The translations under genes were made by a program, and so were the position numbers. The notes beneath the pieces were generated by a model that worked only from the letters and a program-made list of their open reading frames with translations, was not told the DNA's origin and searched no databases. This document shows, in pieces, positions 18,556 to 52,689 of a DNA stretch of 64,000 bases; position 1 is the stretch's first letter, and each line of letters opens with the position of its first letter. Source of the stretch: Xestospongia bergquistia (Eukaryota; Porifera; Demospongiae; Haplosclerida; Petrosiidae). The stretch lies in contig OZ014422.1 in assembly GCA_963965975.1 (NCBI GenBank), forward strand, positions 1,736,001-1,800,000. Reading direction: 5' to 3'.

Positions 18556-18785
18556 CTAGTTTTTTTCCCGTAGCCACTGCTTGAATTTTGTCTTAATTTT
18601 TAATCTATCCTTCTTTGTGTCCACACCTAGTACTGTTTCCAGGGTATCATAATCAATGTCAAACATCATATCACCATCCACTTCATTATCCATGAACATC
18701 TCAATGTACTCATCCAATTTCAAATAACGTAGATAATCTGCAATGTCTTCTGATGTGAGTTTCTTAGCCGCTTTACTCAAATCAT
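18556..18785 (-). CDS. Copy B: C-terminal SAM domain exon
   Basis: Last exon, about 76 codons. It encodes LTSEDIADYLRYLKLDEYIE, then FMDNEVDGDMMFDIDYDTLE and GVDTKKDRLKIKTKFKQWLR. The pattern W/Y-L..L.L..Y...F....VDG..L..L....L...GV....R.KI is that of a sterile alpha motif. SAM domains form dimers, polymers or bind RNA. The preceding exon (18830-19137) carries an acidic, Gln-rich linker. Confidence 0.88.
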
Positions 18786-27700: not shown

Positions 27701-30700
27701 TTTCTTCCAGTTGAGTTATAGAATCTGTTGAATACAGCAAGTCCTTAGCTAAAATCTCAAGGTCCTCAGTAGATGTTTCTGGACGATAAAGACTGATTGC
27801 TCGATTGGTCTTAGCAGCATCTAGTGCATGATTAGTGATAGCTACAAAGGAAACCTCTCTTTTATCAAGATGATAATGAAGAACTTTTAATGACTCGTGT
27901 CGCTCTTCAGGAAGACCAGCTTCATCCATAAAAACAACACAATATGTAGGGACAGATGAGCTCTGATATATCTTTTGTCGTTGGATAGCTTGCTTGAAGA
28001 GATTCTTAATTTCAGTAGAATTTGTATGTTGAGAACATTGATAGAAAAAGGGTTGAAGTCCTTTAAAGAGCTTTATAGCTTTAAGGTCATCATGCTTAGA
28101 AGCTCCTCCCTTGAAAGTATTTGCAACTATGTTAAAAGACAGAGTTTTTGATGTCCCTGGTTCTCCTATGATAATAAGAGGAGTATGTGTTTGACAGCAG
28201 ACAATGTTTGCAAAAACATTCTCTTTCAGAGCTGTTGTTTTTGCTATTCCAGGTGGCAGGTCTACTCGTTCCATGTACCAATCTAGTTCCTCATTAAAAG
28301 CTGTTGTAAAATCCACATTTCCCAAATCCCTACTTTGAATGTTAAGGAATTCACTATAACTTTTCCTGTCCTTATCTCCCAGTCGAAGATAATATACAAG
28401 TCCTAATGCCACTAACACTGCTCTAACTTGCTGTTCTTTAGTAGTAGAGAATCGCTGGAATTCTTTGTATGTGTTAAACAGCCACTTGTAGAAATCAAAC
28501 ACTCGTTGCATATCTCTTTGACTAACACAACTTCTTGCACTTTTTTTTGCTTCATGTGGTAAATAGCCTGCTTCTGTTAATGTCTTCTCAGCATATTTCC
28601 TAATTTTGATCTGGCTTTCTCTTATTAGATAGGTTAACTCTTCAGTTTTGAAACTGGAGGCATCTTTTGTAAGCATTCTCATTTTAGCAGTGACATATTC
28701 AAGTTCTTGGACATCATTCAATGCTCCAGAGTCCCATTTCAAATAATCTATTGTAGGATGAAGTTCTCGTACATAATAACTTGGTTTGTGCCATACATTC
28801 TTCATATTACATAGTACAGCTGTACTGTCACCTCGTAATGGATTACAAGCAGCAATAATAAACACATTGTCTGGTAATGGCTATATAAAACAGATTAATG
28901 TTAATAATATTACTGTTACACATAATTCAAACCTTTCCATCAATAGTTCTATCTACAACAATTTCTTTAAACAGACCCATACAAGATGATGTATCGATCT
29001 GATCAAGATATACCTGTAGTTTTATAATACAAAGTGTATTATCTAACAATCAGTGTAACTTACAGTGACTTGAGGTGGATAATGAGATGATTTCTTAATC
29101 CGTTCTACTTGTCTATTGACTTCATCAAAGAAGCTAATTACATCAGAAGGTTTAAGTCCTTTAAAGAATAAACAGAATTAATAGAAAGGACTATTAGTAC
29201 CTGCATGTACATCCAATTTATGAAAAGTAGATATCACTGCTGTAAGAATGGCTCTTAAAAATTTGAACATAGTCTGTGATATAACATTTGGTTACCATAA
29301 ATAGTTAACATAAATATAACTCACATCAGGTTGAATGACAGACTCATCTACAAATATCCAGAAATCATGTCTCATATACTTTGGTTGAAGAATAGATACC
29401 AATGGATTCTCTTTCAATTTCATCATAGCATCTATTATATCCCCTCTATGACTACATTCTCCGGTTACTAAACTTTCCTCATCTGCAGTATTGATAGATT
29501 TCTCCAGAGCTGTTATTTGATGTTGTATAGATGACTCTAATTTTAACTTTCTCTCTAAATCAAGGTAATAACAGAAAACAATAATTAATAATGACTTTTA
29601 TTAATCTATATTTTATTATACTTTTCTGTATATCCACAAGTAATGTTTGTAGTTCCTCTTTCTGTTTAGACCATTGAACTTCCCAGGAGTAGTTCCAAAG
29701 TTTAGACAACATCTTTAATAATTCTGTTTTTCCAACTCCAGTTTCTCCCTCAATGATAACAGGCATACCACACTCACGTCTCTCATGAATATTGATCATT
29801 TTCAGAGCATAATCCAATGTGAGGACATAGTTATTGTCATCAATAATCTTTAACCTTTTATATTGTCTTTCTTTAATTGGTTTACCCATTTTGTCAGTTC
29901 CTACTTGTACAACTTCAGTTACTTCTGATAAAGGTAAACTGAGAGCTTTTGCTAAGTATTTATCCAAAGTACACCGTTCATAAAGTTTTCTATAATACAA
30001 TGATTAAGCAGTGTTAATTCAGGGAAGCTAATAAACTTACTCCATTGTTGGAATTTCTAAATCAAGAACTTGAAAAGATTCTTTTTCTTTGGAAGGTATA
30101 TCATCAGGATATAGTGTAATTAAATCAATACTACCACCACCACCATGTTGCTCATATATCAACTAAATATATATATATATATATATACATATGTCATATC
30201 CTGCCTTCGTAACTTATAAATATTCATAACATATTTTGTATTTAAGCCTTTGTTTTTGCATTTTCAGTCAGTGAGGGAGTTTTGTTAGCCCCATTTTTGT
30301 ACAATTCTTATACTGTTTTTTTTGAGTCATTGTGTTGTCATTTAATGTTATTCAGTAGTTCCTTGTGGACTGTGATTGGGTGCGTCTCGGTTATTTCAGT
30401 TGGTGACGAGGGTCAAAGAGTTGAAGACACATTTACTTACTAGATGGCCCATGGGAAACTTTCCACCTTTGACCAGCACAGCGAATCGTGGACTTCATAT
30501 TCCGAAAGATTGGGATACTACTTTACGGCTAACGATATTACAGACGAAACAAAAAAGAAATCAATTCTGCTGTCGTGCAGTGGAGCAGCTGTCTATGATT
30601 TATTGAAGAATCTTCTGCAACCTACCTGTCCGAATGATAAATCTTACGATGAACTAGTCAAAGTCCTGTCCGACTACTTCAATCCTAAACCAAGCACTAT

Positions 30701-33700
30701 TGTGCAGCGTTATAAATTCAATACTCGTGTTAAAGAGTCAGGAGAATCTGTTGCAAGTTACGTGGCTGCTTTAAAATCACTAGCTGAATATTGCGATTAT
30801 GGTCCTAAGTTAGACGAAATGGTATGAGACCGTATTGTATGCGGTATTAATAACTCAAGAATACAAAGTCGGTTACTACAAGAAAGGAACCTAACTTATC
30901 AAAATGCGCTGGACACAGCTCAGGCTATGGAATTAGCTGCCAAGGATATCGCAGATATGCAAAAAAAGAACCTCTTCAACCATGGTACCTCATCAACTAG
31001 TTCATCAGCTAAATCCGCCTAAAGAGAGGAAACAAAGAACAGTTCCAACAACCATTGAGTGCTATAGATGTGGAGGGAATCATTATGCAACGAAATGCAA
31101 ATTCATCAATGCAGATTGTAGATCATGTGGCAAGAAAGGTCATCTAGCAAGAGTTTGCAGAGCTCACTCCAAATCATCAAAGTCTGCCACAACCACATCA
31201 ACTGTTAGAGGTCAGCCAACACACACTTTAGAACACTCTAAAACCTTACTAGACCAGTCCCCTTTTGCCTCAAACCAGACTAATCAACCCAACAATGCCT
31301 ACCCAATGTTTACCTTTCCTGGGGAGGGCAAACCCATTGTGGTTACTGTAAAAATCAATGGGTCAGAGTTGCCAATGGAGGTGGACACTGGGGCCTCCCT
31401 TTCCATTATTAGTGAAAGTACCTACCTTTCGTTAATTGCTCCCCCAGAGCTTAAATCAACTGATCTCACTTTACACACTTACACAGGTGAGAGTATTATA
31501 GTGTTAGGTTCATTAGAGGTAGATGTTTCATATGAAGATAACATGTTTACATTGCCTTTACTTGTTGTTCAAGGCAGTGGTCCGAGTTTATTAGGACGTA
31601 ATTGGTTAGAGCAGATTAAACTAAATTGGACCAAAATTCATGTCGTATCACCTAAGATATCATTGAACAATTTATTAGAGAAATATGCACCCCTTTTTAA
31701 ACCTGAGTTAGGATGTTTAAATACTTCCACTGCCATAGACCCACAAGTGAAACCACGATTTTTCAAACCTCGCCCAGTCCCATATTTACTTAGAGAAAAA
31801 GTTGAAAAGGAAATTCAACGCCTTCAAGCACTAAATATTGTGACTCCAGTTACCTCTTCAGAATGGGCAACCCCTATTGTTCCTATCCTTAAAACAAACG
31901 GAACATTACGATTATGTGGTGACTACAAAGTTACAGTGAACAAAGCCCTACAACCAGATTCATATCCACTACCTAGGGTGGAAGACCTTTTGCAGCTCTC
32001 ACAGGAGGAGTTGTTTTCTCAAAACTAGACCTTAGTCATGCGTATCAGCAAATTCGGTTATATGAAGACTCCTAGAAATTTACGACCATTTCAACTCAAC
32101 ACGGATTGTTTCAGTACGAGAGATTGCCTTTTGGAATTAAAACAGCACCTGCATTATTTCAAAGAACCATGGAAACTCTTCTCAGAGACTTACCATACGT
32201 TTGTGTTTACATCGACGATATTCTTGTCACTGGCACAGATGAACAAAATCACCTAAATAACCTCGAACTTGTTTTACAAAGATTGGAATCAGCTGGATTG
32301 ACACTAAAGAAGTCAAAATGTATTTTCACAGCAACATCCGTTGAATATCTAGGACATGTAATCAACAAAAATGGGTTACACCCATCTCCTTCGAAAGTAC
32401 AAGCAATAAAGCAAGCTCCACAACCTACTAATGTTACTGAATTAAAATCTTTTCTTGGTTTAGTGAATTATTACCACAAGTTCTTCCCTAACCTGTCTAC
32501 GTCACTGGCCCCATTACATTCATTGCTACGTAAGAATAGTCATTGGAATTGGTCTACTGAACATTCAGAAGCATTTACAAAGGTAAAAAGTTTATTACAA
32601 TCCTCTTCTCTTTTAGTTCACTATGATGACAAGAAACCATTACTGCTGGCTTGTGATGCTTCTCCGTACGGCATTGGTGTTGTACTCTCTCATCGTATGA
32701 ATGATGGTAGTGACAAACCAATAACTTTCATTTCTCGCACTTTAGCTCATGCTGAAAAGAATTATTCACAATTAGAAAAAGAAGCCTTAGCAATAGTTTT
32801 TGCAGTCGAGATTGCACCACTACCTCTATGGTTGTCACTTCACCATATACTCAGATCACCAACCATTGAAATACATACTGAATGAATCTAAACCAATACC
32901 AGTCATGTCATCATCAAGAGTCCAGCGCTGGGCATTAACATTATCAGCTTATGATTACAGTATCCATTACAAACCAGGAACACAGATGAGTAACGCTGAT
33001 GCTCTCAGCAGATTACCACTCTCAAGCACTATTGATTATGTACCTACACCAGGAAATTTACTTCTTCTATTTAGTCAGTTATCAGAACGAATCATATCAG
33101 CTAAACATATCAAGCTATGGACAGAGAAAGATCCTATGTTATCTAGAGTTAGAAAATTGATTCAAAGTGATGGTGAAATTCCTGAAACTGAAGCTGAGTT
33201 AAGACCTTACTCTCAGAAGGCATCAGAATTAAGTGTTGTTGATGGTATTCTTCTTTGGGGATCACGAGTCATTGTTCCACATCCTGGACGCGATATCATT
33301 TTACAACAACTTCACGAAACTAATCCAGGAGTGTCTAAGATGAAAAACCTAGCAAGATCATACATTTGGTGGCCTGGAATAGATAAGGATATTGAAAATA
33401 CTGTTGCACATTGTAACACCTGTCAAATTCACCAACCTGCCCCAGCTCAAGCTCCTATACATCCATGGGAATATCCAAATAGACCTTGGTCAAGAGTCCA
33501 TATTGATCATGCTGGACCATTTCATGGAAAACAATTTTTACTTCTAATAGATGCACATTCTAAGTGGTTAGAAGTACACATAGTTGGATCAACCGCCTCT
33601 TCAGTGACCATTAATAAATTACGTGACATTTTCGCTATCCACGGTATACCAGAACAACTAGTGTCTGATAATGGATCAGCATTTACCAGTAATGAATTTA

Positions 33701-36700
33701 GCCAATTTATGGAACAAAACGGTATCAATCATACATTAACATCACTATATCATCCTCGATCCAATGGATTAGTTGAACGTGCAGTGCAGACATTTAAGCA
33801 AGCAATTAGAAAAATGGATGGCAATTTAGAGTCACAAATTTCTAAATTTTTATTTAATTATAGGATTACTCCTCAGTCAACTACTGGGCTAGCCCCAGCA
33901 GAGATTTTATTGGGCAGACGACCACGTTCCAGATTTGATTTACTACATTCTGATATTTACAAGAAAATTCGAGATAAACAAGACAAAGTAGTTCAAACTA
34001 ATCATCGTACTGTTAGAAAATTTTCGATTGGTGATGCTGTTTTTGCTAGAAATTATTCAGGAACACAGAAATGGATACCAGTTACAGTAGTCAAAATTAC
34101 TGGCCCAGTATCATATCAAGTTAAAACTCAAGCAGGCAATGTTATTAAAAGACATGTTGATCAGTTATGTTCTCGTCATACTGAAGATGCATTTGACAAT
34201 TCAGAAGATTTTGAAGATTTATTTGATGATTGGAAAATTCATCCATCCTTACCTCTAGTGCCAAATCAAATGCCTGTTGCTACTCCTACAAGTACAGGTG
34301 AAACACTGCATCGCTCGAGTAGGGTACGTCGACCAGTTACTACGTATGCTCCACTGGTTTCAAACTAGAGGGGGAGGAGTGTCATATCCTGCCTTCGTAG
34401 CTTATAAATATTCATAACATATTTTGTATTTAAGCCTTTGTTTTTGCATTTTCAGTCAGTGAGTGAGTTTTGTTAGCCCCATTTTTGTACAATTCTTATA
34501 CTGTTTTTTTTTGAGTCAATGTGTTGTCATTTAATGTTATTCAGTAGTTCCTTGTGGACTGTGATTGCGTGCGTCTCGGTTATTTCAACATACTTGATAA
34601 ATTATCAGTTCTTTAATAATATTACCTGTTGACGTGCTTCAATTGACCAATCTTCTTTTGTAGATGGATCACAAAATTGTAAAACTTCCTTCAACATAGC
34701 TTTCAGCAGAGTTGAGCCTAATTTTTTTGTATTTCCTCCTTTTGGACCCCTTCCTTGATTGTACTTATAAGCTGGAAAATTATCTAGAAACTGGCAACGT
34801 CTTTTCATATACCTATTTTGTTAATCAGTAATAGTAACATTGTTAAAGGACCTCTTACTTGATGAACAGCCTCTGACTGATTTTACGCTCTTTCATAAGA
34901 TCAGGCATATGTTCATTTAATAATCTTAGACATTCAATATCACTCATGTCTCCAAATTTAATTGGTTTAGCTAAAAAAATAAAATGAATAATTTATATCT
35001 GTAAGCTTCTCTTACAAAACACTTTCACATCAGTCTTGTCTCCAAATTTGAGTGGGTCAGCTAGTAAATAAATTTTAACAACTTACATAAACATCTTTTA
35101 CTTACAATGAAACAATTTATCAATTCCCCATTCTGGTCTCCTTTTCTCTTCATTAAGAGCCCACAAATATTTACACACTAGTTGTACATCATCATCAACT
35201 ACATAAGGTATACTGGAATCAATATGTCTCTCAGTACCAATGAAACAAAATGTGGGTATTAGTTTTCGGAATATGGAGAGATTTCTTTCGGGTTCATTGC
35301 TAATTGATGGAACCTGCAACAAAAAATATGAATAATAAAATATTGTTTTCGTCTGTCAGACCTCAATGTAAACTTTCCAGTTAAGTCCTTTAGGAACAGT
35401 AAAGGACATTCCAGTATGTGTGTCATGTACATATCCTAGTATGAACAGGTCAAACATAAACCATCCAATTTTATCCATCAGTTGAGTGAACTGTTTTCTT
35501 TCTTCATCTGCTACATTGCTCTGAAATAATTGCAATGCAATCAAATTTATGACCATGCATATTTATGAGACATACCCCTGGTGGAAATAGTGTAAAATTA
35601 AAGTGAATTGTACACTCATTAGTATCATCTAAGGAATTCAATTTAGTGAGAATACGACAGATAGAAAATGACTCATTAATAGCTAAAACCACAGAGGACT
35701 GATGAAACTGGTTTTTAATGTAATGTGTCTTTCCATCACCTAGATGATATAGGAAAATAATTATAAGGTCTAAAATATATGACTCATTGAAATTATAATT
35801 ATAAACAAGACTAAAATCATAAAAATAAAACGACTTTGAAAATGTTATGGTCACAGTGAAACACTGATGTTTTCAGATTGGAAAGCTGGTAGATTTTGTG
35901 GAGATAAAGTTAGTGGACAGAAAAGCAAGCTATAACCATCATTTAGAAGAAAAAATTCAATTGCTCTCAATTATCAATTGTATCTGCAATTAAAGTATGT
36001 GGTTTCTTTTGTTTGCTGATTTCTAATTGCAGTTGTTGCATACAACAATAGAATAAAACAATGCAAATGGACATAATCATATAGAGACATGGTTAACTAT
36101 AAAACAATTATAAGACTGCTTGGTATCCAAAGTATGCTGTGCAGTATAAATATGTTTATTCTAATCTCTCTCTCTATATATGAAGATCAAGCTATTATAT
36201 AAATAAAATTGTTGCATTAAATCTTATAATGCATATATACACATTCATAGTGATCTTTCAATAACAAACTGCATTCAAAGTCACAATTGGTTTTGCCATG
36301 TGTCAATGAATGAAATCCCTTATTCCTTTTGTTATTAAAACAGTTGCTTGTTTGAAGAAGGATAGCCAAACTTAAATCTCATTACTATTTAAACAGTTGC
36401 TTCTTACCATATGTATCTAATATTGTGTAGACTCAACTGACATAATGCTTCTTTGAAACTACTTGGCCTTTGGTAATGTGATTTCTTTGCTATGTCACAT
36501 CAATACTTTCTCATAGATATTTCATGCTTTTTTATCCATCCATTTCTTTTGATCTAATTATACATATAGTCTTTGTATTGAGGGAATTCATGCTTTTTAT
36601 AATTGATCCTTACCTTGTAAACCATACACTAGTTCTACAGCACAAAAATTATCATTTCTGAGAATTTTTTCTACATCTTTTTTTGGCTGAAGTGTCTACA

Positions 36701-39700: not shown

Positions 39701-42129
39701 TGATCTTCTGTGCCTTCATTAACCAAACAGAGAGATTCAGTTATATTAGACAACATTCTTAGCCACTCTTGGTCTTTCAGATTTCCAGTTATTATAATCT
39801 ACAGATAAAATATTAAACTAATTATATAATATTAAAAGGAGCACTTTACTTCAGCTATGACATCTAGCACAATTTTCTTGAACTTGTTTACTGATTTTAA
39901 TTGTGCCTATCGTTTCATTTAAAAGTATGTATACTTTAATAATATAGTGCAGCATGCAGACTTACTTGAATTATTTTCTGAAAATGTTGAGGAATTTTAG
40001 CTCCTATATTATGCTTGGAACTATAAATATGTAGGAATTCTTTAAAGTCTTTAACAACTCTCAAGTCATCTTTATCATTTTCACAAATGATTAAAAGAGA
40101 TCTAATGTTAAATTGAACAAGATCTAATATGAATCTTGTAGGCTCATTTCTTTTTTCATAACATTCAGATAATGGCTTTAAGAGATATCCTATTAAGAAT
40201 TTGTGGGCAAAAGCACCTCTAAATCTGTAGGTTAAGTTTTATTATATGTGAGGTAATATAGGTTAATTGCATTGACCTCTCTGAAAGTAGTTGCAATGCC
40301 TTGACATGTAGTTCAGTAAGAATTTTTCCAGACCCAGGAAGTTCTCTTGTTTCATATAGTTTTAAATATTCAGTTATTATCTAAGATGGGAATGAATTTT
40401 GTTCACTAAAGAATTTTTATAACCTCTGCACTCCATAGCCCTTTATGAGAGAAATCAATAAATTGCTTAAAAGAGAATCTACTTAGATTTTCTTTTATTT
40501 TCCACTGCACCTAAACATTATTCATACAGAATGATACTATATGAAATAGTCAGTGATCTAACTTTATTTTCAAAATGAGAGGAGAGATTTCTCTTGCTGA
40601 GCAAATTTGTAGAGACCTTTTTGAGCCCTTCAATAATATCAAAGCTCTCTGGTTCAGTTATCTCTACGAATTGCAATAAAAATGTTATCCATTTCAGCAA
40701 CCCAGTTTCAATTTCCTCATTGTAAAACTTTGCAGAACATTTGCATATACAATCAAGATATTGAAATCCCTGAAAATAAGCATAAAAATAGTTCTAAGAC
40801 AATCAAAAAGCTTACTTGCACTATAAAATCAGTGTCATTTGCACCAACAGATGGAATGTATTTATGCATAGCTTGTCTATAAATTGACAAGGTTTGTTGA
40901 CAGAAAAGATCATAAAATTCATGAGCTGTCTCTATCCACTGGTGCATATTTACAGCAATCTTACTATTGTGATAAAGTAAATAGAAAATCAAATAAACAG
41001 AGCAAACAAATAGATTACCTCAATTCAGAAAAAGGTCGCAGATATTCATTTTTGTGAAGCAATAATGAAAGACTGCCACAACCAATGAATGTTTGATCGT
41101 ATTCTAATTCAAGCTCATCTCCATATGTACAACATGCAACAAGCTTTTCTAGTAATTCAGATGTCAGTGTAATAGGTGTTAAAAACTACAGGTAAATTAT
41201 CATAAATAACTCACTTTAGGAATGCACATAAAATACCTGTGGAACATGACCCCATACATCCCTTGGAGCAACAGTACAACTACTTAAGGAACAGTTCATA
41301 AACTTTTGTGCAACACTAACTATATAACATAGAGAACATAAGGCTAATTAGTCAAAGTCAAACTTACTCCACTTCATTAATAACACTAAATGTATCAATA
41401 AACCATCTTCAGTCATACTTTCAACCTTAGTTAAATCATTTAGATATTTGCTCATCAATCTAACTATACCACTGTGAAGTTGATGATAGACTGGCACGCT
41501 ATTGGAGCTATTTTCCATGACTGAAAAGCTCCCTCTGTTTGCATGTATATATTATATAGTTTGTCATTTAAAAACTTAAATATTGTACCTTTGACAAAAT
41601 TTTTTCACAGTCAGAAAAATATTCTTAATATCAAATACATCCAGGAGGTCCCAACAACGTTCACTTAATTGATTAATAGCAATATTCACATTTATAGAAA
41701 ATGTTCGTGCTGTTTGTGAGCTACAACAACAAAACTCAATGACATTCCTGTAACATAGGTTATCCTCTTTTACTTTAATAGTAGATAAACAAAATGAATA
41801 AGAAATATGATATCCTTCTCAAAAACTTCATGAAGATGATCCAACAGCTCAATTAAAGCTTTGCTTATATTTTGATCCTGTTGAACCAAAGAATAAATAT
41901 TTTTTAACATTATTTGCTGCAAAATTCAATTTATTACCTCCTCGTTCACAAGGATACTTGTTATCAACTGGAACACTTCTGGATTATCACTGATACTCAA
42001 TTCATGAGGAAATAAATACTTTCTTAAGTACATTAACAAGGGATTCTTGCAAAACTTTTCATCATCTACATGAACACATACCACTAAAATAAAACAAATT
42101 GATAAACACAATTTTCTAACACTGTATAC

Positions 42130-42182
<53 letters not shown>

Positions 42183-44031
42183 CATATGTGTAAAATATAT
42201 ATTAGAGCATTTCACGTTAAAAGTAAACAAAAATTAATAAGTCGTACATGATAAGTAATTCCAGTCACAATATACAGTTATCATCATATTCAGTAGTCAC
42301 AAGGTACAATCAAACAAGTTAATGAGATTTAAATGTTACTATAAAACACATTGTCAGAATGATCTAACAGCCATCTAAATATACACCTTGTAAATGCAAT
42401 CTGTGATATTGTAATATGTTTGCAAAATTAAACACTGAAAGTTAAGAGTCATGCAAATGGTTGTGGAGTATATCATGTAAATATAGTTTAACATGCATTG
42501 GTTTACTTATTATCATCAATGACAAAATGACACAACTAATATTCATTTGGTTCAAAGCCATTTGTTGGCATTGATGAATTAATTACCACATAATTATTAT
42601 TATTATGTTATTACTACGTGATATTAACCTCATAGCACATATGAATAGGTGAGCTTACAGTAGGTTGGATATGTGTTACCAATTAAAGCACTTTAACAAA
42701 TCATAATTTGCATGCGAGCATTGGATTGATTCCAAACTTATGTAACAAAAGCCAAAATTAGACTTCAATAATGTTGTTTGCTTTGAAACCATGTTATCAA
42801 AAACAAAGCTTAACAATTCAAAAAACAGGTTAAAAACAAAAATTAAATGCAAACACTCAATCTAAGGTATGCATATGCATCAACTTATTGGGAACGTCTT
42901 GACACAAAGTGTGTTTAAAAGCTATGACAACTTTACTTAGTAATCTTGATAACCTCTTATAATTTGCAAAATAAAATTTGTAGCACACAAATATATTAGC
43001 AATAACTATTACCAATATGAAGCAATTCCAACATAGCACTTTACTTATGGCTAAGTCTATCAAAGGAGCACAGGGACAGAAAAGGGGGGGTGGTTAAGGC
43101 CTTCACCCCCCTCCAACTTCTGACAAGTAGTACAACACAATAACCCTTATTGATAACAAAGTCCCAATCTATATTCTTTTTTCAACTAGTTGGTAAAGGT
43201 TTTGGTTATGTCAGGTATATTAGTGAATATAACAAAATTCACTAAATTATATCCAACTCCTCCCCTTAACTGGAGTTGACCATGCAAGACTAGATTAGTC
43301 TTCACCCATTTGATAACATTCCTACTCCTATGCACAGAAGATACTTGAGGTTAAGGCCTTCCAAATACTTATACTACATCCTATCTCTTGCCATTTCTAT
43401 ATCTGAATTTTACTTGCTACTTCTCTCCAGTGGTATTGAAATAACTCTGTGTCCTGATGATGTTGTTAAATGTGTTTGTGATTCTACTGAGGAGTCTAGT
43501 CACATGGTTGCTTGTGACAACTGTTCAGGCTAGTCTCACAGCACTCATGTAAATCTTTTTCCAAGTATGGTACATAAATATCCTTTTCTTTGTGTATAAA
43601 CATTGTAACTTGTATAACCATATAATGCTTAAATCAACCAATTGATTTTTACAGTGGAAAAAAACTATTGTCTAATTGTAGCCAGCAAGTTCTTACAGAT
43701 GGTTTCTGCTCTTCTATACATACAGTCCTCTCGGATATGCCTCATGGATCTATACTAAGTCCAATAGTCTTTGCCTTATATATAAATGACATACTGATAT
43801 CACCTTTCTATCAGATATACTCTTACAATAATTATATGTGAATGATAATTTACAATCTTCTTATGAGTTTTCCTCCAATCAGTCTAACAATTAATTTGTT
43901 ATATTCTTGGTTGCAATATAGGCCCCTCAAAATTAATAAATCTAATACTAAAGTTATGATAGCATCAAAAAACAGTTTTCTATTTCTGATATACCTAATC
44001 TTGTCAGCAAACAGATAGACAGACAGGCGCA

Positions 44032-44070
<39 letters not shown>

Positions 44071-47000
44071 CAACCAAGTACTGCAACCCTCGTCCATGCA
44101 GTGAGCAGTGATTTATTAATTATTAACCACTAAATAAAATTATACTGCTCTTATTATTTGACACATTTCTCTTCACACTAGCTATGGCTATTAAGGATCC
44201 ATGCATCTTTTGTTTATCCAAAAAAGGAGAGTAGTAGTGAGTAGAAATACAACCAAGCAGTCTATATCTTGTTGAAATGACCACATCTACTTGTTGTACG
44301 AGCAGTTAATATTAAATATCAACTACACTAGTCTTTTTCAAATTGATGCTGTACTTTGGTTTCAGAAAATACTTGTATTAACTACTTACCTTGTAGATGT
44401 TCATCTTGTTCCTTTCTAGATTGTCCAACATTGTCCACTGATGGCTTGCAACCACCATCACTAGGTCTATATAGATCAAATAAATTTAACTTTTACAAAC
44501 ACATGTGCACATAAATACAACTGTATAAAGGTTACTTATACATAATATGTATAACCTTTATACAGTTTTTATGATCATTGATCATAAAAACTGTATAAAG
44601 GTTTAAAGTTTTTAGTGACAAGAAAGCTATTACTAAAATAGTTTAAAAATCAAAGCACTATGCATGTTTGTTCATTAAAATGACAATGCAAATTTTCCAA
44701 GCTAGGATATCTCATAGCAACTTTAGAAAGATGTAAGTCGTGTTTGCTGATTAAAAGAGCTTGCTAGGCTGGGAATACACAAATGTAATAATTAGAATAA
44801 AGTTATAATTATCGAATGCATTGGATTTGAAATAAATTTATAATACATAATAAACATTAAAAATAATAAAACTCACAAAATACTAGCGAAATCAGCAGTG
44901 ATCTGGTAAATTGCTCTAGAAGATTTCCAATCCAAAAAGCTATTAAATTGTAGTGGATCAAATGCTGCATTGTTGACTGCAAAAAACAATTCAAAACATC
45001 TACCTTGATACGAAAGAAAATGGAAGTTAACTATGTCAAGATCCAACAATTTTGCGAGATTCCTTCGAATATCTTCAACTTTTCTGCCACTTAATAAAGA
45101 CTGATCAATCCCTCTGAGAATAAGACTAATCCTGCATGATTGAGAACTGCTATATACATAACTAGGAGAAAATGATTGAGAAGGTATCTCAAAAATACAA
45201 CGTTCAAGGTAAGGAAGAAGGGTCATTTCTTGATATTGCTTTAACAACTTCTTCTCAGTTTGATTGCCTTTTCTTTCAACAATAGCTAAGAACAATTGAT
45301 AGTTAAACCATGAACTATGCTTTGAAAGTGCCAAAAATACAGCAAGTGTATCAGTAGATCTATCTTCTTTCACTTCAAGAATACCATACTTCTTTTTAGC
45401 AATCAATAACACATCTACCAAATTGACATTCCGACTTGCAAATGAATTACACAATTGGTAAATAAGTGATGCAAATGTTATCCGAACACATTCATTTTCT
45501 TCAGCAAGATTGTTTATCACTTTTTCTTTATCACTGTCTGATAACTTATTCCAGTTAGGAAAGCATTTTGCAGGAGTGATCTGTGAAGGTTTTCTTTGAG
45601 ATGATTCTAAGGCATATTTAGCATATTCAATAATACATTCTGCTATTGATGGACAGTTCATATCTAAGAAAGCTCTTACAAGTACAAAATATGTTGCCTC
45701 ACTACCTAAATTTCTTTTCCAAGCCCACAAAACACCAATCTTTTGTTCTGAATCAGTACGTTTTTTTGAAATGGACTTCAACCTCCAGTCAGGAACTTTC
45801 AAATGATGACCAACATTTTTGTAGTTACAAATTTTCATTGCGACTTCAATAAAAAAATCATCATCATCTGTGCACTCTCTTTTAACATCTTTAATACTCA
45901 TATTACATTTCCTTAATAGTAGCAACAGTTCTAAGTAAAAAAAAAAGAATACGAAACTTTCTTATGCTATCTAGGAAGTATTCTATATTAATCTTATAGT
46001 AAACAAGACGGCACCAACCATAATGGCAACAGTACATAGGCATTCATAATGACAGTGCATCTAGGTATTGTTAATGTCCTTTTTATTACTAAATTTGTCA
46101 TTTTAACCAAAAAATAATTGTAGTTATATTAAACCTCAACAAATTTCTTGTCATAGCTGCTATGAGTAAAATTATGATAGTGTTACAAACAAACTAAAGT
46201 TTGTAACAACTGTACACTCCCACATATATACGTATATGTGTGTGTGTGTGTGTGTGTGTTACTCTGAAATAAAGTTCAATATATTGGCTATGTATATATA
46301 TATATGGGTTATGTACCAAGGTTTAGGTAGCTACATGATTTAAACACCATTGGTTTGCAGGTCAGAGGTGTATAAATGTATAACCACTGAGGCTAAGGTA
46401 TATATAACTGAATGGTATATGGTGGTACCATATTAACCAATCAGATTGCTTGATATCAATTGCTCCATTAGATCTACTGTAGATGTGTCTGCTGCTTTGG
46501 ATAAGTGTGCATCAAGTTCTGCCTATAAGCTTTAGCTGACATAAGAACGCTTACAATCTGCTTGTATGCAGTAGAAGAGGTGGGCTTTTTATCTATACTT
46601 TTGTCTACAATACACACAACAGCTTATAGAAATTGGATGGGGTGAAACATTGGAAAGTACATTTGCTAGCCTTATATACCCCTAATTACTTTGATGTTCC
46701 ACAGAGTATTGTACTGGTTAGCTCTTAGCTTCACAGTGATGGTCATTACTTAGTCTGATCTAAACAGAGATTTATACTTCACAATCAATGATGTTATCTC
46801 AGCTATGAGAAAATTTACCAAAAAAATTGCCATTATATTAGCCTCATCATTCATGCCATTCCTTCAACTATAGTATTAATTGGACATTACTCAAGGCCAG
46901 AAGTGACTTTATTTATTAAATGATTGAAGCTTTTGTACTGCAATACAGATATACCAGCATTTATACAACCAAGGACATTCACCACATGGCAATGTGCATG

Positions 47001-50000
47001 CTTATGCAGTTATATATCTAATTCTGATGAATATATATTGATGTATACAGACAAGAAAATATTATTTGGTAAACATTTTGAGCTATGAGGAAGTTAAGTA
47101 ACCTGTTCCCAAGCACTGTTAGAATGTTTTCTTATATGCTAACCACACTAACTGTTCATATATATAGTGTTGTTTTGCTTCTTCTTATTACTTCTCATCA
47201 CAGATATGAAAATCATAGTTTTCTATGATCCTTACATATTTTAATCAGTTAAATATAAAAATGTATGATCTTTAGCAGTGATATACCATTACTATTGCTG
47301 CTATCTTGGTAAGATTCTGAGTTAATATAGCACTATCCCCATATAGTACATCTTTTTATGAGCAAGACTTATATATAAACTTTATGAATATGCAACAACA
47401 TGATATGCCATAAAATATAACAATCATATTTAACCTCGCTGTGTGTGGGCGCATAGTGAGGGTTACTGTAGTCTGACAGTGTGTGTCTGTGTGTCTGTTA
47501 CCCAGGCAAATGGCTTTGAACTGCTTTAACTTGGCAAACAAGGCACTGGTAGCCTCCAAACTATAGTAGACGGTAGCAAAAGTTCTGTACTTCTTAAAAA
47601 TATTGCCAAAAGGAGCGTCAAACGAACAAAAAGCTTTAAAAGTCTGAAAAACATTTGAAAAAAAGCACAGCTTTCAGTGAAGACTCGAAAATTCAATAAA
47701 ACCTAGTGCATACAGCTTATCACATTTTCCAACTTTTTAAAGTGAGAATTTTTGCAAAAACACTTTTTTGGAAAGTTATGACAGTCTTACTAACTTTTGG
47801 CAGTTATCTTTGTCAATACATTGAGCGCGAACTAAAAATACTAGCACCATAGCTGTCATTGGAGAATCACTAACTTTTACTAAGTAGTTGGAAAGTATTG
47901 GACCTTTTGTCAATTAGAGTGCAAAGTACCCAGTAGACACACTAAAATTAAGGCAAAGCTTTTTTCCCTTTGATTGAAGAGAAATGCTGAGCCATCAATA
48001 ACCATCTTGCGCATCACGTGAGATTACGTCACTTGAGGAGGATAAGGAAGTCTCTGGATAAGACTGCAGCGAGGTTAAGCACTTTAGTGCATTTCATTTA
48101 ATTTGGAATTCACAAGTACAAAGTTAACTATATCAATGACAAAAGAAAAGTATGCTCACTAATCAGAATAACAAGACAAATATGTCATCGCAAGGATAAT
48201 AAAATGGTCCTAATTAAGGTAACTAACAACTATACTGTTCACATAAAGAATGACTGTGGTTTAGTGGAATCCAATAACATCAACCTAACTTGGGCATGGT
48301 GTTATAGTAGTCTAGCGAGTTATTCCTACTCCTTTTTGATAAGGATTATGGATTATGTGGAATGTGGGGCAGTACCTCAATGTTTATATAATGGTTATAA
48401 ACAGTTTTTAAAATTGCTATGTTATAGAGTTATATTTGGAGGAAAAGAAGGTACTGCATAACAACTATGTAAACAATGCAGTATTGGCACACATTCCAAT
48501 GGGGCAGTAAGCCTAGTATGTTTCCAGACCCTCCTCCACTTATCAGCCTTCAAAAAGGAGGAGGGATTAGCATGCTAGACCAGGTGCTACAATTACAAAG
48601 CTTTTCATATGGTTCTTCGTTACTGTCTCTTCTTAACCTAGGCTACTTTTACTACTAAAGGCATTTTCATAGTTTTTGACCTTATCTGCACTGTTAAAGC
48701 TAGAGAATGTGTGCTGTTGTGCATTAATTCATTAATAATATGCAAATTATGCATGACATCAGACAACTGAAATATAAAGAATGCCATTCACTTTATATGG
48801 ATTTCTAGTTTGTGACTTTTCTAAATAGCTATATTGCTCTAGATTTTGATAAAACTTGCAGACTTACAATGCTTTTTAAACCATTTCTCTCTAGCACATT
48901 CTTATCTAGAGTTATATAACACTGAGTTAGTGGTCAATCTCAATGTCAACAAAGTATATAGCATCACAACCACTTGAACACAAACAAGTATTCAATGCTC
49001 CATCTTGCATACATAAATGTAACTCCATTCTATAGTTATGGTATTAATGGAGATCATATAAGTATTATTGCATACTAAATCACTGCTTTCTTCTCTTAAA
49101 CTTATAATTACAAAAGCAAAACACTCATTTTATTTTCAATTATTAACTTTTCAAAATAGCTGTAAAGATTGCTTCGTTATTGATTTATTTAAAAGAAAAA
49201 GATATTCTATATTTGAAAATCTTTTATTGTGACTTACAAAGCCTATCTCATGCAAGTAATAAACTAAGTCAACATTACTTTTAAAAGAAACACTACAAAG
49301 TATTCTAATTAGTTTTTGGCGAGATATATATTATAGTGCTTTCTGCTAATATTTTCAATAAACAATTTGCATGGGATATCCCTACAGTGTGACACCTATT
49401 GGTCAAGCATAATGAAAAAACATATATTATGTAACCATATGCATTAAACCATACAGCAAACATTCTCAGTGATCCAAGTCTAGTTTATAGGAAGTTGAAT
49501 GGATAACAAGTCAAATATATTTGCTATAATAGCTAGTCTCATCCCCAGACTATCACATCCTATGACAAAAAGGTAGTATCACATTTTTTGTCTTTGGACA
49601 GAAATTTTTAAATATTGCAATAACAATGTTATCCACATGCATCTTGTTAACTTCCCATCAAGTCTAAAAGTAATTCTAGTAATGTGATAATATATAATAG
49701 CCAAATTTTAATTGAGTATACATTACAGTTGTCCCAAGAATATCAAGCAAAGATACTAGACAACCTTTTACTATGAGGCAGGTGAGGTAGTCTGGGAATG
49801 AGACTACACCATAGCATGCAACTTCACTATAAAAAATGAATAATTATAATTGAAATTTGGTAATGGTGATTTTATTACATTAATCAATTATCGTACCTTT
49901 AGAACATTTCCTTTTCAACTGGCCACATATTCCTGATAGTGCAGGATCTTTCTCTAGGACTTCAATAAATACATAAAGGTTGTCAGCACTCCATTCTATC

Positions 50001-50647
50001 TGAGCTTGTACACACAGCAACAGTTGAGTGACTCGATAAGTATGTTGTAGACCAGGAGTTGACACATTTTGGAGAAGTTCAGGGCTAATTAATTGTGCCG
50101 AAAGTAACTCTCCAGCAAATTTGATAGGATCCTGTACTTTACTACTGATTTCAGCAAAATGATCATTAAAGATTTTGTACTCGTCAGTGCGGCGAGTACA
50201 TTGAGAATGGTGCCAATCCTACCATATGTAGATATAAATAAAATAATATCAAAGTCCTAGTAGAAAATGCCATACTTCACTGGTAACTAAATTTAAATAC
50301 TATACCCTACTGAGATCATAGAGTTCTAAAATTAAAGCCTTAGAATCAGTAGTAACTTGGACTGGAGTCACAATAAGAGCCTGACCATTTTCTTCACTGA
50401 CTACATACACCTTAATATTTTTAGGTTCAAAGACTTAGGATATATATGTACATTTAGTTCATTGAATAAAATTCACTATTGCTTGCAGTCATGGAGCAGT
50501 CACTATCGGACTGCAGTTTTCATCACTAAAGTCATGACGACAACTCATAGGTCAATCGTAATCTGTTATATAAATCTTACAACAACGCATTTATATGCTT
50601 TCTAGCTCTAATATTTCGCTCACCTCTTTCTTATTTTTGGCAGCCAT
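18556..50647 (-). CDS. RNF213-like ATPase with N-terminal Death-fold domains and C-terminal SAM, copy B
   Basis: Complete gene. ATG at 50645-50647; exons 50624-50647, 50306-50410, 49897-50218, 44877-45930, 44390-44466 and 41938-42083 join in phase, then many small exons follow to the TAA at 18556-18558. Order: short lead, CARD/Death-like domain, Death domain, companion region, helical arm, six-AAA core (AAA3 and AAA4 motifs intact), helical E3-shell-like region, SAM. I see no RING or RZ zinc pattern. RNF213 relatives are cytosolic ATPases; Death and SAM domains are homotypic assembly modules, so a signalling or scaffold role is inferred. A Gypsy element sits antisense in one intron (30165-34625). 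An in-frame TAG occurs at 37199-37201; it could lie inside a 45-bp intron or be inactivating. The roughly 4-kb intron between the first two death-fold exons rests on matching phase only. Confidence 0.8.
18830..24094 (-). CDS. Copy B: C-terminal helical region (RNF213 E3-shell/CTD-like)
   Basis: About twenty exons with short introns. Landmarks: QICNALASVVAVTL and LWYHIFSPDELLGTYITGFL (about 21900-22060), MWLHMSTNLGLTDEQLSLL (21510-21866), YPRLQAGGALLPSLIEFYQW (20880-21200), GHSIGAGACVNVRRENATP (20640-20800), and an acidic tail before SAM. These match the C-terminal part of the RNF213 family. No C-x2-C pairs spaced as in RING or RZ fingers are found in the exons I translated. Nearly identical to 53743-59020 in copy C. 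Confidence 0.72.
24094..25910 (-). CDS. Copy B: post-AAA6 exons (position of E3 module)
   Basis: Exons 24641-25910 and 24094-24594. The first begins after TATAG and encodes a 423-residue helical stretch (LFGFLPSSYPSEGV, FLIIANMQDVTLKMINHLRI, FPQGQQLFTRCYPALFLSGW). The second encodes DDHILSPVIKALRDENLWQK. In human RNF213 the RING lies after the comparable E3-back region. Here the sequence passes from one helical exon to the next without a zinc-finger pattern. Confidence 0.78.
27483..28880 (-). CDS. Copy B: AAA4 exon
   Basis: Same architecture as 2309-3703: NVFIIAACNPLRG, Walker A GEPGTSKT, Walker B VVFMDEAG. Acceptor TATATAG at the upstream end and donor GTAACT at 27477-27482. The first third shares some substitutions with neither A nor C, while the last third is nearly identical to C and different from A. 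Confidence 0.88.
28933..29013 (-). CDS. Copy B: AAA3 Walker B exon
   Basis: Short exon equivalent to 3757-3837 and 63843-63923. It encodes VYLDQIDTSSCMGLFKEI. The Glu of the usual D-E pair appears as Gln, because the codon reads CAG where A and C read GAG. The substitution at the catalytic glutamate position could weaken AAA3 hydrolysis in copy B. Confidence 0.7.
29622..29989 (-). CDS. Copy B: AAA3 Walker A exon
   Basis: P-loop VIIEGETGVGKTELLKML is identical to copy A. Acceptor TTATAG and donor GTATAA. The next exon upstream (about 30040-30164) carries EQHGGGGSIDL and follows the Gypsy-bearing intron. Confidence 0.86.
30192..30398 (+). repeat. 5' LTR of Gypsy element
   Basis: 207 bp, TGTCATATCC at the start and TTATTTCA at the end. 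By eye it differs from the 3' LTR by four substitutions and one T-run indel, about 98% identity. Confidence 0.93.
30444..31200 (+). pseudogene. Gypsy gag-like region, broken
   Basis: Starts at an ATG at 30444. An in-frame TGA interrupts it at 30825-30827, and a frameshift lies between about 30980 and 31040. The 3' part, in the new frame, carries two CCHC zinc knuckles, CYRCGGNHYATKC and CRSCGKKGHLARVC (about 31060-31155), typical of nucleocapsid. A frameshift before the knuckles, rather than after them, points to damage and not to programmed recoding. Confidence 0.8.
31300..34368 (+). pseudogene. Gypsy pol (protease, RT, RNase H, integrase), broken
   Basis: Protease with the DTGA active site at about 31384-31395. 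Reverse transcriptase from about 31740, with catalytic YIDD near 32207-32218. RNase H from about 32640 (LACDASPYG). Integrase from about 33250: a zinc-binding region, D and D in HIDHAGPF and VSDNGSAF, and E in NGLVERAVQ. A GPY/F-like module (GPVSYQV) is near 34100. Breaks: one-base frameshifts at about 32010 and 32805, and a TAG near 32073. In the integrase zinc domain the second His is Asn (LHETNPG). The last frame is open from 32800 to 34368. Confidence 0.85.
34380..34587 (+). repeat. 3' LTR of Gypsy element
   Basis: 208 bp, matching 30192-30398. It follows a purine tract that would prime plus-strand synthesis. Confidence 0.93.
34600..37270 (-). CDS. Copy B: AAA1-AAA2 exons
   Basis: Counterpart of 4990-7440 in copy A, including the P-loop split by intron 35740-36613 (VYGLQ then GDGKTHYI). 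Two oddities: a 45-bp exon-like duplicate at 35016-35060 next to the normal exon start at 34970, and an in-frame TAG at 37199-37201 in the exon equivalent to the copy A segment GSFLDKLFQLELP. Confidence 0.72.
35740..36613 (-). other. Intron splitting the AAA2 P-loop (copy B)
   Basis: 874 bp AT-rich intron in the same place as 6069-6797 in copy A, but largely diverged in sequence. No gene seen. Confidence 0.55.
38116..39211 (-). CDS. Copy B: long helical arm-like exon
   Basis: Acceptor TATAG and donor GTAAAA at the same positions as copy A 8287-9406. The final 110 residues (RFEQLLALVTQRLQHEEY onward) differ from A by only a few residues; the first part is substantially diverged. Confidence 0.8.
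39240..42083 (-). CDS. Copy B: N-terminal helical exons
   Basis: Small exons from 41938-42083 (VVCVHVDDEKFCKNPLLMYL) down to 39277-39756. They are homologous in order to 9440-12270 of copy A but only moderately similar. The 42083 boundary (ATTTTAG) takes a phase-1 codon from the linker exon 44390-44466. Confidence 0.7.
42135..42180. repeat. TA microsatellite
   Basis: Uninterrupted (TA)n with CATA edges. Confidence 0.85.
43330..43990 (+). mobile_element. Degenerate non-LTR retrotransposon (LINE, CR1-like) fragment
   Basis: 43440-43600 encodes a PHD-like zinc pattern (CVCDSTEESSHMVACDNC), interrupted by a TAG before a Ser-His pair. 43730-43800 reads SDMPHGSILSPIVFALYIND, the RT motif usually written SGVPQGS..GPLLF..YIND. 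43910-43975 gives LKINKSNTKVMI, the later RT motif. All are on the plus strand in different frames, so the element is dead and shortened. A PHD finger upstream of the enzyme region is known from CR1-like LINEs. The (CA)n tract after it may be its tail. Confidence 0.62.
44034..44068. repeat. CA microsatellite
   Basis: (CA)n of about 17 units just downstream of the LINE fragment. Confidence 0.85.
44390..44466 (-). CDS. Copy B: linker exon after the Death-domain exon
   Basis: 77-bp exon bounded by CTATATAG and GTAAGT. It encodes PSDGGCKPSVDNVGQSRKEQ. It takes phase 2 from 44877 and gives phase 1 to 42083. DNVGQ is reminiscent of DSVGQ in the N-terminal repeat region of copy A. Confidence 0.65.
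44519..44603. repeat. Overlapping AT-rich palindromes
   Basis: Arms 44553-44577 and 44579-44603 are perfect 25-bp inverted repeats around one base. The left arm also pairs with an earlier 16-bp inverted copy (44519-44534 against 44552-44567). Alternative hairpins are therefore possible in this intron. Confidence 0.88.
44877..45930 (-). CDS. Copy B: Death domain plus companion region exon
   Basis: Exon of 1054 bp, acceptor with a T10 tract then ACTTAG, donor GTGAGT at 44871-44876. Near its start it encodes a textbook Death domain: FFIEVAMKICNYKNVGHHLK, VPDWRLKSISKKRTDSEQK and VLWAWKRNLGSEATYFVLV, with the conserved W and the DSEQK..LW.W motif. A region of about 200 residues follows (WNKLSDSDKEKVINNL, SSWFNYQLFLAIVERKGN, KQYQEMTLLPYLERCIFEIP) that I cannot name with confidence. 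If the gene began here, the first ATG would be at 45905-45907. I prefer joining to the upstream exon because phase 1 (G|AA) fits exactly. Confidence 0.83.
45931..49896 (-). other. 4-kb intron of copy B with repeat debris
   Basis: Holds a (GT)n tract at about 46237-46260, a tRNA-derived SINE-like sequence at about 46300-46405 on the minus strand, and otherwise AT-rich sequence. Short open frames at 48204-48661 (plus) show no family resemblance and are not called. Confidence 0.5.
46300..46405 (-). mobile_element. tRNA-derived SINE-like head
   Basis: On the minus strand it reads TAGCCTCAGTGGTTA (close to a pol III A box), then about 30 bases with CTGACCTGCAAACC, then a weak B box (GGTGTTTAAATC). 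Spacing resembles a tRNA-derived SINE head. No body or tail was delimited. Confidence 0.4.
49897..50218 (-). CDS. Copy B: CARD/Death-like domain exon
   Basis: 322-bp exon encoding an amphipathic six-helix-type sequence: YKIFNDHFAEISSKV, FAGELLSAQLISPELLQNV, YRVTQLLLCVQAQIEW and LYVFIEVLEKDPALSGICGQ. Hydrophobic spacing and length (about 90 residues) suggest a CARD or Death-fold member. It lies directly upstream of the Death domain in phase. Which Death-fold subfamily it belongs to needs profile comparison. Confidence 0.6.
50306..50647 (-). CDS. Copy B: first two coding exons and start codon
   Basis: Exon 50624-50647 gives MAAKNKKE from the ATG at 50645-50647, with donor GTGAGC. Exon 50306-50410 gives 35 residues starting VYVVSEENGQALIVTPVQV. 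Both end in phase 0 and join 49897-50218 cleanly. The basic start and beta-like second exon have no recognised motif. Confidence 0.62.
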
Positions 50648-51044
50648 TTGCTAAAGGGTCACATGCTTACTTATGACGTCATTTGTACCCTAAAGATGAA
50701 GTATGTGGCCATGTGTTTATACACGAATCTATATATTGTTGAAGAGTATATGGAATTTAAAAGAGCAGGGATAATAACATATTCAGTATCAAATACATAT
50801 ATAAATTATGCAATAAAAATTATTTAGCTAGAGAACATTTAATTTGCTTGATTTCTAAATCTTTCAAATTCCTTGTACTTGCATGGATACAACAATACCG
50901 AAAACATGATTTTGGCTAAGAGATGTAGATATTGTTTCTTGTCTGTATAACAATCAATAGCTAGTTATGGGTATGGAAAGTTATAATTATTTTGACAACT
51001 GGCCCATTTCATCAGTGTAAGCACTAAGCTTATATCATGTAGCA
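50648..51044. other. Upstream region of copy B
   Basis: About 400 bp AT-rich, expected to contain the promoter of copy B. No motif assigned. Confidence 0.35.
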
Positions 51045-51345
51045 CACATTATTTTAAAAGCCATTTTCTTCTGTAGCCACAACTTGAGTTTTGTCCTAAT
51101 CTCAAGCTATATACAGTATATAACTTGGATTGTAAAAATAAATCAAATTAAGAATGTCACTAGTTGCCATTTATTTGCATTATCACAGTTAACAAAATTA
51201 TTAATAATTATCATAGTTAACAAAATCATTATCAGCAAAATTAAGGGATGTTTAATAAGTATCACTCCGTCTAAATTATAGAACAAAGAAATACAAATAC
51301 ATTACTAGTTGCTCTGTTTGTTAATAGGTAAAAAATAGGTTTGAA
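51045..51345 (-). repeat. 3' flank cassette, copy 2 (diverged)
   Basis: Similar to 18160-18540 and 53080-53450 in the same orientation, including the CATAGTTAACAAA repeat and a SAM-exon-like remnant at 51060-51105. It stops abruptly near 51345, where the plus-strand gene tail begins, so this looks like an inversion or rearrangement junction. Confidence 0.7.
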
Positions 51346-51393
51346 AGTGCCTTATATTAATTGTGTCATATATATAAATGATATTGACTTATA

Positions 51394-52283
51394 GGGTCTA
51401 AACAACAATTAAAGGAACAGCTTGATGGTTTTAAGGAGATATTAAAAGATGCTGGAGAGAATATGAGAGTAAACATTGATGCATTATCTCAGGTAATATA
51501 AACCTAAAACATCCTATAACTAATTCCTTAATTTGATCTATAGATGTCTATAGTTGCACTGTTGAGAGAATATAGTTTGCTAGATGATGAAGATGAAAAA
51601 TTGTTGAATTCATTAATCCTTCTGTTTTAATTGAAAATTATGTCTCATCTCGAATTGTTTTAAGAAGGTGCAGATACAATCATTATTATTATTAGCACAA
51701 TAGATATACTTTATTTATACAGAATAACTACTCGACTTGAAAGGAAAATTAGTCCAAATACAAGACAATGGAGCTCATTTGTGGATGATCTATGGACATC
51801 AGAGGACAAACTACTTCACTTAGGTGAAAATATTATAGAGGATGTGCACAAAATTGAAGAAGGGAATTATGGATTAGAGAGAGAATATTCAGATGAAGAC
51901 AGTGATTTCGAGGATGAGATTGATGAAGTGGTACGACCAGGTTCAATGCGAACAACAACTATTACTGCCAATAATGTAACCTTGCCATCACAACCAGCTA
52001 TTTATACTTCAAGCATATAATTTTTTTACTAAATTAACAAATAGATCTAAATTGGCAGACTAAAGCAAAAGCACTCACTCCTGGTGACATAGTGGACTAC
52101 CTCAAAAGTATTAAGCTTGAGAGATATGCAGATACTTTTGAGAGTAATGATGTTGATGGAGAGCTTATGGTTCAAATAGTTAACAATAAAAGCATCTTGG
52201 AACAACTGGAAGTTAATAATGACTTCCATTGTACCAAAATAACTACCAAGTTCAAGTCATTTGTAGAGGAAAGAATGAAGTAG
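51394..52283 (+). pseudogene. Inverted RNF213-like gene tail with its own SAM domain
   Basis: Plus-strand exons are homologous to the last exons of copies B and C. 51396-51492 encodes LKEQLDGFKEILKDAGENM. 51543-51668 begins MSIVALLREYSLLDDEDEK and then loses frame near 51600, although the other frame continues the family pattern (LIENYVSSRIVLR). 51722-52020 encodes WSSFVDDLWTSEDKLLHL and an acidic linker. 52051-52283 encodes a SAM domain (LTPGDIVDYLKSIKLERYAD and NDVDGELMVQIV) ending in TAG. The usual GT donor before the SAM exon is replaced by GC. Everything upstream of this tail is missing. It is diverged from B and C and probably dead, though the SAM exon itself is open. Confidence 0.75.
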
Positions 52284-52689
52284 ACAGAAAGACTGATGTA
52301 ACTCAATTTTTATATATTTTTATATACTTTGCTTGTGTAAGTTAGTAGTAATTATTTGATTAAAGAATTGTTATAATTATTTAATTGAATCTGTAGCAAT
52401 AAGTGATATCTTACCAATATGCTGTATATATATTTATTATCCTTTATATTTTCCTGCTTAATTGTCAATGTTAAATATTTTGTTATATATAGTTTATTGT
52501 AAATTTAACACATGTTGAGTTCAGTCTTCATAATGGGAGGTGTACATCCAACTTTGATCACCAGCTGTATATTTCATATTTATAAAGCATTCCTCATTAT
52601 ATATAACATATACTCACTGCTCTCTTGTCTTGACCACTACCTAGCTAGATAACATCTCAGCATTCTTTAAATTCAATTAACATATTGGA
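52284..52689. other. AT-rich spacer
   Basis: About 400 bp, very AT-rich, after the plus-strand SAM exon. No feature seen. Confidence 0.4.

Follow-up and report, generated by a model that had tools for sequence, protein, structure and literature searches.

The locus and its gene model

The gene described here, gene A, lies on the minus strand of a 64,000-nucleotide stretch of the genome of the sponge Xestospongia bergquistia. This stretch, the window, corresponds to C12:1736001-1800000 of a 146-Mb genome in 21 contigs, and the surrounding 264 kb were joined to it for context. From 50647 to 18556 an automatic model, which draws on codon bias, similarity between the copies and splice sites, yields an open chain of approximately 69 exon pieces, encoding 5409 amino acids and a stop codon. 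The chain comprises a short first exon, a helical exon (HSR/CARD-like), an exon with a Death domain, a linker exon, an arm and AAA core that resemble those of RNF213, and a SAM domain. The exon ends of the original prediction, made from the letters of the window alone, were reproduced by this model (50647-50624, 50218-49897, 45930-44877 and so on to 18785-18556). Some small pieces of the model are doubtful (for example at 36.4 kb, and one of 2 bases at 30625), the AAA3 Walker A stretch is skipped though it is open in the window, and changed settings give slightly different lengths.

The RNF213-like core and the SAM tail

The RNF213-like part begins with an arm exon at 42083-41938 (phase 1 in), of which sister genes B, C, D and F have a similar exon, and continues with arm or stalk exons recognized by cross-copy similarity between 41877 and 34626. 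The AAA3 Walker A region (GETGVGKT) lies at 29808-29671, and AAA4 (GEPGTSKT, VVFMDEAG) is contained in a 466-residue exon at 28880-27483. Matches of this exon in the PDB are exclusively to RNF213 chains, with a best E-value of 6e-36, so the name RNF213-like given in the original prediction is right for the AAA core. Between genes A and B the exon has nonsynonymous and synonymous divergences (dN/dS) of 0.021/0.105. Both Walker A motifs are kept, and by its sequence gene A has an AAA core of the RNF213 type, including the nucleotide sites of AAA3 and AAA4, the Walker B glutamate of AAA3 being replaced by glutamine. Among the six of nine C12 SAM-type loci at which it was read, the AAA3 Walker B motif is LDQID in gene A (codon CAG, 29001-28999) versus LDEIN in B, C, D and F, where the codon is GAG, and in E. 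The same change in mouse RNF213, E2449Q (human E2488Q), has been used to block hydrolysis at AAA3, and in that study autoubiquitination is unaffected by E2449Q and reduced by Walker A changes (PMC12075652). Copy A would be expected to bind ATP at AAA3 and hydrolyze it poorly there, as a member biased to the ATP-bound state.

The exons from 27436 to 18835 lie at the place of the RNF213 E3 module and contain no RING pattern and no RZ match. No RING pattern was found in the models of A, B, C and F, nor a Pfam RING at E 0.01 in P0009, a homolog of 2941 amino acids. The genome has nine RZ finger matches, seven of them near AAA loci and none at a SAM-bearing locus. The E3 function of RNF213 therefore cannot be transferred to gene A. 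The gene ends instead in a SAM domain, as had been predicted; its last exon (18785-18556, including the stop codon) scores 39.9 bits against PF07647. AAA4 and SAM also occur in one frame in P0009, whose 9129-base Joint Genome Institute (JGI) contig probably derives from a transcript. A NACHT domain was indicated in gene A only by a sub-threshold P-loop match (19.5 vs 26.7 bits), and no LRR was found among the ten exons scanned with Pfam, which sets the gene apart from the NACHT and LRR combination of the NLRs.

Two further observations concern this region. Between genes B and A, at 52038-52280, the opposite strand carries an additional SAM exon (40.6 bits), and a piece of the flank downstream of the SAM exon is repeated at 51338-51041. 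The intron 34626-30162 of gene A holds a gypsy-like long terminal repeat element at 30937-34365 on the plus strand, with open reading frames for protease, reverse transcriptase/RNase H and integrase.

The Death-X and HSR/CARD-like exons

The exon at 45930-44877 (phase 1 in, phase 2 out) encodes a Death domain followed by a tail of approximately 230 amino acids, and is referred to here as Death-X. The window copy scores 21.8 bits against PF00531, 0.8 bit below the cut-off of 22.6, while the homolog P0131, 59% identical to it, reaches 36.9 bits. An AlphaFold2 (AF2) model from an alignment of 13 sequences has a mean predicted local distance difference test (pLDDT) of 77.8, with 84-93 across most of the Death part. 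Its best PDB matches are the death domains of FADD, TRADD and TNFR1, with a probability of 1.00 and template modeling (TM) scores by target of at most 0.80, the Foldseek E-values being 0.09 or worse. The profile match of the homolog and the predicted six-helix fold together place the exon in the Death domain superfamily. In the model the tail is helical and then alpha/beta; it has no convincing relative in PDB or Pfam. An NCBIfam search returned nothing of weight.

Death-X is a mobile module. The genome contains 91 matches to it, of which 54 copies were used for the comparison of loci, weaker or fragmentary ones being left out, and 48 of these 54 lie on contigs without any RNF213-like match. 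A 93% identical Death-X is present in another sequence source, and between A and its sister D, which also carries the exon, dN/dS is 0.29/0.73, below 1. Members of this family share with gene A the Death-X exon and the phase of its donor, and some also have an HSR/CARD-like exon upstream. Four Death-X genes, on C1, C3 and C8, run on at phase 2, which suggests that the exon is internal by habit. Unlike in gene A, the exons that follow in these four look coiled-coil-like by eye, and two (L050, L051) also have a long one resembling LRR, again by eye, in which Pfam called no LRR.

Upstream of Death-X are a candidate first coding exon, MAAKNKKE (50647-50624, phase-0 donor), and the 107-residue HSR/CARD-like exon (50218-49897, phase 0 in, phase 1 out). 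The latter has a 57% identical frame in gene D, where dN/dS relative to A is 0.31/0.79, again below 1, and 22 matches genome-wide. The window copy has no relevant Pfam match. Two of eight aligned members, neither of them the window copy, resemble HSR, both below the cut-off (best 21.9 vs 24.9 bits, in a paralog), which leaves CARD/HSR membership without a profile match above threshold. A single-sequence AF2 model shows six helices at a pLDDT of 51.6, too low to count as fold evidence, and a PDB profile search gave E-values of 1 or worse only. HSR resembles CARD, according to PMC4548144. The original designation of this exon as CARD/Death-like is thus plausible from the weak HSR similarity; it is unproven, and it is the weak point of the architecture.

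The junction between Death-X and the RNF213-like arm

In most long paralog matches the Death-X frame stops at the same position, and if the exon is left unspliced the stop is immediate. We initially considered that this marked the last exon of a separate gene, but dropped the idea because in the DNA the stop is a splice donor. The end of Death-X reads xT|GTRAGT at phase 2 in 18 of 20 paralogs examined, drawn from the 91 matches; the two exceptions are a paralog with GTAAGG and a damaged one. The apparent stop is therefore explained by the conserved donor that overlaps it.

Read by eye, the phases of gene A connect from the head exons to the arm: the HSR/CARD-like donor and the Death acceptor are both phase 1, the Death donor and the linker acceptor phase 2, and the linker donor and the arm acceptor phase 1. 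They agree at every junction read in A and D, and the predicted position of the Death exon, in phase between a helical exon and the RNF213-like arm of a gene that ends with SAM, is borne out by them. The candidate linker exon (44466-44390, phase 2 in, phase 1 out) has the phases of the sister-gene linkers. Within the 2793-base interval in question, the exon ending at 44390, with acceptors at 44466 or 44460, is the only one of at least 60 nt and a donor score of at least 2 that bridges phase 2 to phase 1, and none of 300 dinucleotide shuffles of the interval yielded a bridging exon with an equally good donor and acceptor. The automatic model starts the linker at 44415 and the arm at 42065; the positions 44466 and 42083 were chosen by hand. 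No in-frame ATG was seen in the linker frame of gene A.

By eye, a phase-2 acceptor is found on the linker exons of A, D, B, C, F and two copies from contig C2. In gene D the linker exon, at window positions -13160 to -13290, is followed by three more phase-1 exons and then the arm. A longer phase-1 frame directly after Death-X in D (YDIHTV) was rejected as its phases clash, while the acceptor at -13160 fits. Sisters B, C and F, in which no Death exon was found, each hold a putative first exon that reads ME(SE)D(K/E)NPD and has a phase-2 donor, with length differences in multiples of three. This exon was not found in A or D between the linker and the previous gene, so the head exons seem to occupy the position of the first exon.

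The tandem array

Gene A belongs to a tandem array of RNF213-like genes, of which B and C lie partly inside the window and D, E (on the opposite strand) and F outside it. Gene B is represented by its 3' part (53469-64000, minus strand, continuing beyond the window) and gene C by its 5' part (1-15437, minus strand, continuing below it, with the candidate first exon at 15437-15415). Both are SAM-type genes in which no Death-X was found. Just before the arm, B, C, D and F carry a domain of approximately 150 amino acids, here domain Y, that is 55-79% identical among them and has no credible match in gene A (searched from 41900 to 53469). A conserved short frame with a transmembrane-like stretch, without a Pfam match, is present upstream of C, B and F (16023-16430 on the minus strand, 76104-76475 and -65564 to -65367, respectively), and the N-terminal part of gene C includes a 495-residue low-complexity frame rich in proline and glutamine (14403-12919, minus strand).

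Distribution across the genome

The AAA exon has 53 matches in the genome, which reduce to 37 loci after removal of 16 second pieces. These were compared with 26 of 76 SAM matches, all nine RZ matches, 54 of the 91 Death-X matches and all 11 matches of a C2 exon labelled Y; the excluded SAM matches lie on other contigs, apart from three, distant from any AAA locus, on C4 and C7. A SAM match lies 3-22 kb downstream at 18 of the 37 loci and an RZ match at seven, with none having both and 12 having neither; this pattern comes from single-exon matches in a limited first look, and its absences are soft. The seven RZ-bearing loci, at C12:852-975 kb, C12:2.44 Mb and C15:0.80 Mb, look like canonical RNF213 and have no SAM match.

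Death-X occurs no more than 22 kb upstream on the same strand at three of the 37 AAA loci, two of the nine C12 SAM-type loci and one on C2, against a random expectation of 0.15. As tandem relatives, A and D count as one event, which leaves two independent ones, and the fair figure is P(≥2) of about 0.01, a value that ignores the clustering of Death-X copies themselves. At the C2 locus (L053), Death-X lies 1-2 kb after the SAM exon of one gene. A linker with a phase-2 acceptor follows it at approximately 0.1 kb and the C2 Y exon at 0.3 kb; in 10 of the 11 loci of the C2 array this Y exon stands ahead of the AAA exon. We had taken the C2 Y exon as a homolog of domain Y on C12, and withdrew that on re-checking as BLAST gave no match. 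Among six C2 5' regions read, Death-X is present in L053 and L058, absent from L054 and L055, and not resolved in L056 and L057. In a tree of 23 Death-X sequences, midpoint rooted and with one long row, the C12 copies A and D fall near C1_11217k and C4_590k, and C2 falls in a different clade, with C1_24823k (98/91). On this tree the association of Death-X with RNF213-SAM genes on C2 is independent of that on C12. A swapping of parts is also suggested by L057, a C2 RNF213-like copy in which a 545-residue frame (L057:1927-3561) ends in a Pkinase domain (112.8 bits, residues 300-533); no SAM match was seen at this locus.

One gene or two

We consider it probable, on the splice phases, that one transcript runs through Death-X into the RNF213-like gene. 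Several points weigh against this. The fusion across 44877/44466/42083 is deduced from comparison, and the chain of D was read by eye. No similarity could be detected between the linker of A and the linkers of B, C, D and F (a resemblance noted earlier was dropped when a re-check gave no match); it is tied to them only by position and by phase, which would agree one time in three by chance. The ME..NPD exons were picked by eye for mutual similarity from 4, 3 and 8 candidates, and when these starts are forced the automatic models of B, C and F add pieces before the linker, those of C and F with other linker starts. The dissimilar linker and the behavior of the models led us to lower our confidence slightly. 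Among 495 AAA homologs, the 120 listed include none with Death, CARD or DED in precomputed Pfam annotation. Against 128 homolog proteins, whose N-terminal completeness is unchecked, Death and X queries gave no match and a CARD query gave only a 23-residue stretch at E 0.35. On C2 both Death-X exons look damaged, with one apparent frameshift in L053 and several lesions in the decayed copy of L058, and the linkers of L053, L054, L055 and L058 hold an in-frame ATG whether or not Death-X lies upstream, so that Death-X may be dispensable or unlinked there, with translation starting after it. A word search of long homologs, seeded from residues 1-500, returned eight proteins, all through the ATPase part according to Pfam and none known to be fused.

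The principal alternative is that there are two genes, one with the HSR/CARD-like and Death-X exons ending in the intron after 44877, at the TGA or by intronic polyadenylation, and a separate RNF213-SAM gene starting below it. The immediate stop of the unspliced exon, the predominance of Death-X on contigs without RNF213-like matches, the ATG codons of the C2 linkers and the dissimilar linker of A would all suit this arrangement. It is nevertheless unlikely, given the GTRAGT donor of the paralogs, the phases, which match at every junction read in A and D, the A linker frame, in which no ATG was seen, and the search upstream in A and D, which gave no ME..NPD exon. The original prediction had named a separate gene ending before 42083 as what would overturn it; the splice phases of sisters and paralogs make such a gene the less likely case. 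Somewhat less likely again is that both forms are made, splicing giving the fusion, and intron retention after Death-X with early polyadenylation giving a short HSR/CARD-like and Death-X protein that could act as partner or decoy. In A and D, as in the paralogs, the donor does overlap a stop codon in frame, although at this phase any G|TAA or G|TGA produces such an overlap, which does not imply its use. That copy A is decaying toward a pseudogene, as its missing domain Y, AAA3 glutamine and retroelement might suggest, is the least likely, given that the chain is open as far as the SAM stop, dN is well below dS in the AAA exon between A and B, a 93% identical Death-X exists in another source, and the retroelement sits within an intron.

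The reading we favor, with moderate confidence in the whole, is a single gene that encodes HSR/CARD-like and Death domains, a novel tail, a linker, an RNF213-like stalk and AAA ring, a C-terminal part lacking RING and RZ, and SAM. It would probably have arisen when, in a SAM-type RNF213-like gene, a mobile pair of HSR/CARD-like and Death-X exons replaced the short exon with which coding began, at a phase-2 intron.

Relation to known systems and a possible mechanism

Gene A shares with mouse and human RNF213 (PDB 6tax, 7oim, 8s24) the dynein-like AAA core, as judged by sequence, both Walker A motifs and the giant size, and differs in its SAM tail, its HSR/CARD-like and Death-X heads, the AAA3 glutamine and the RING and RZ, which were not found. 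Several AAA homologs bear sponge names (Oscarella, Amphimedon, Oopsacas), and others have 'Em' identifiers, which we take to be Ephydatia. Among these homologs, P0019 of Oscarella lobularis (4928 amino acids, 'uncharacterized protein') has the AAA core and C-terminal SAM of gene A without a Death domain by Pfam at E 0.01. SAMD9-family proteins are immune NTPases with N-terminal SAM or DEATH-superfamily domains, and they have a STAND-like NTPase with AlbA and Sir2 parts (PMC5445408), where gene A has an RNF213-like ring with a head and a SAM tail. The NLRs of the sponge Dysidea avara likewise place an N-terminal CARD or Death on an ATPase and are greatly expanded, but combine NACHT with LRR (PMC12909245). 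We found neither RNF213 with Death or SAM heads nor sponge RNF213 among the top matches listed in the open-licence PMC literature.

The gene A product may be an immune or cell-death scaffold, as originally proposed. In the best reading, of which assembly and function have about an even chance of being correct, it would be a scaffold, gated by ATP, on which death-fold heads are brought together. The AAA ring would change shape on binding ATP, under the influence of a ligand or membrane bound at the stalk or C-terminus; SAM tails and death-fold heads would cluster, and the Death domains could then seed assembly with other Death-X or adaptor proteins, leading to a death or inflammatory response. 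Both halves of this mechanism have precedents, in the domains of SAMD9 (PMC5445408) and in the coats that mammalian RNF213 forms on pathogens, which are described as cooperative and as requiring ATP hydrolysis (PMC11549300).

Significance

The RNF213-like ATPase resembles a chassis to which various signalling parts are fitted. A broader and distinctly tentative proposal, which we think more likely wrong than right, is that the SAM-type RNF213-like ATPases of sponges constitute a superfamily of receptor-like proteins, in parallel to NLRs and SAMD9. In it a fixed AAA ring would repeatedly take parts, with death-fold heads at the phase-2 intron on C12 and independently on C2, and, in one C2 copy, a kinase at the opposite end. 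Headed copies such as A, biased to the ATP state by the AAA3 glutamine, would use SAM to pair with tandem sisters that have no head, the two acting as sensor and executor. In gene A, nature would provide an equivalent of the AAA3 Walker B mutant made in the laboratory. In mammals, RNF213 restricts highly diverse pathogens. If a sponge lineage of such proteins has a SAM tail but neither RING nor RZ, and acquired death-fold heads twice, the ancient immune core would seem to be the ring that senses ATP, with E3 activity as one output among several.

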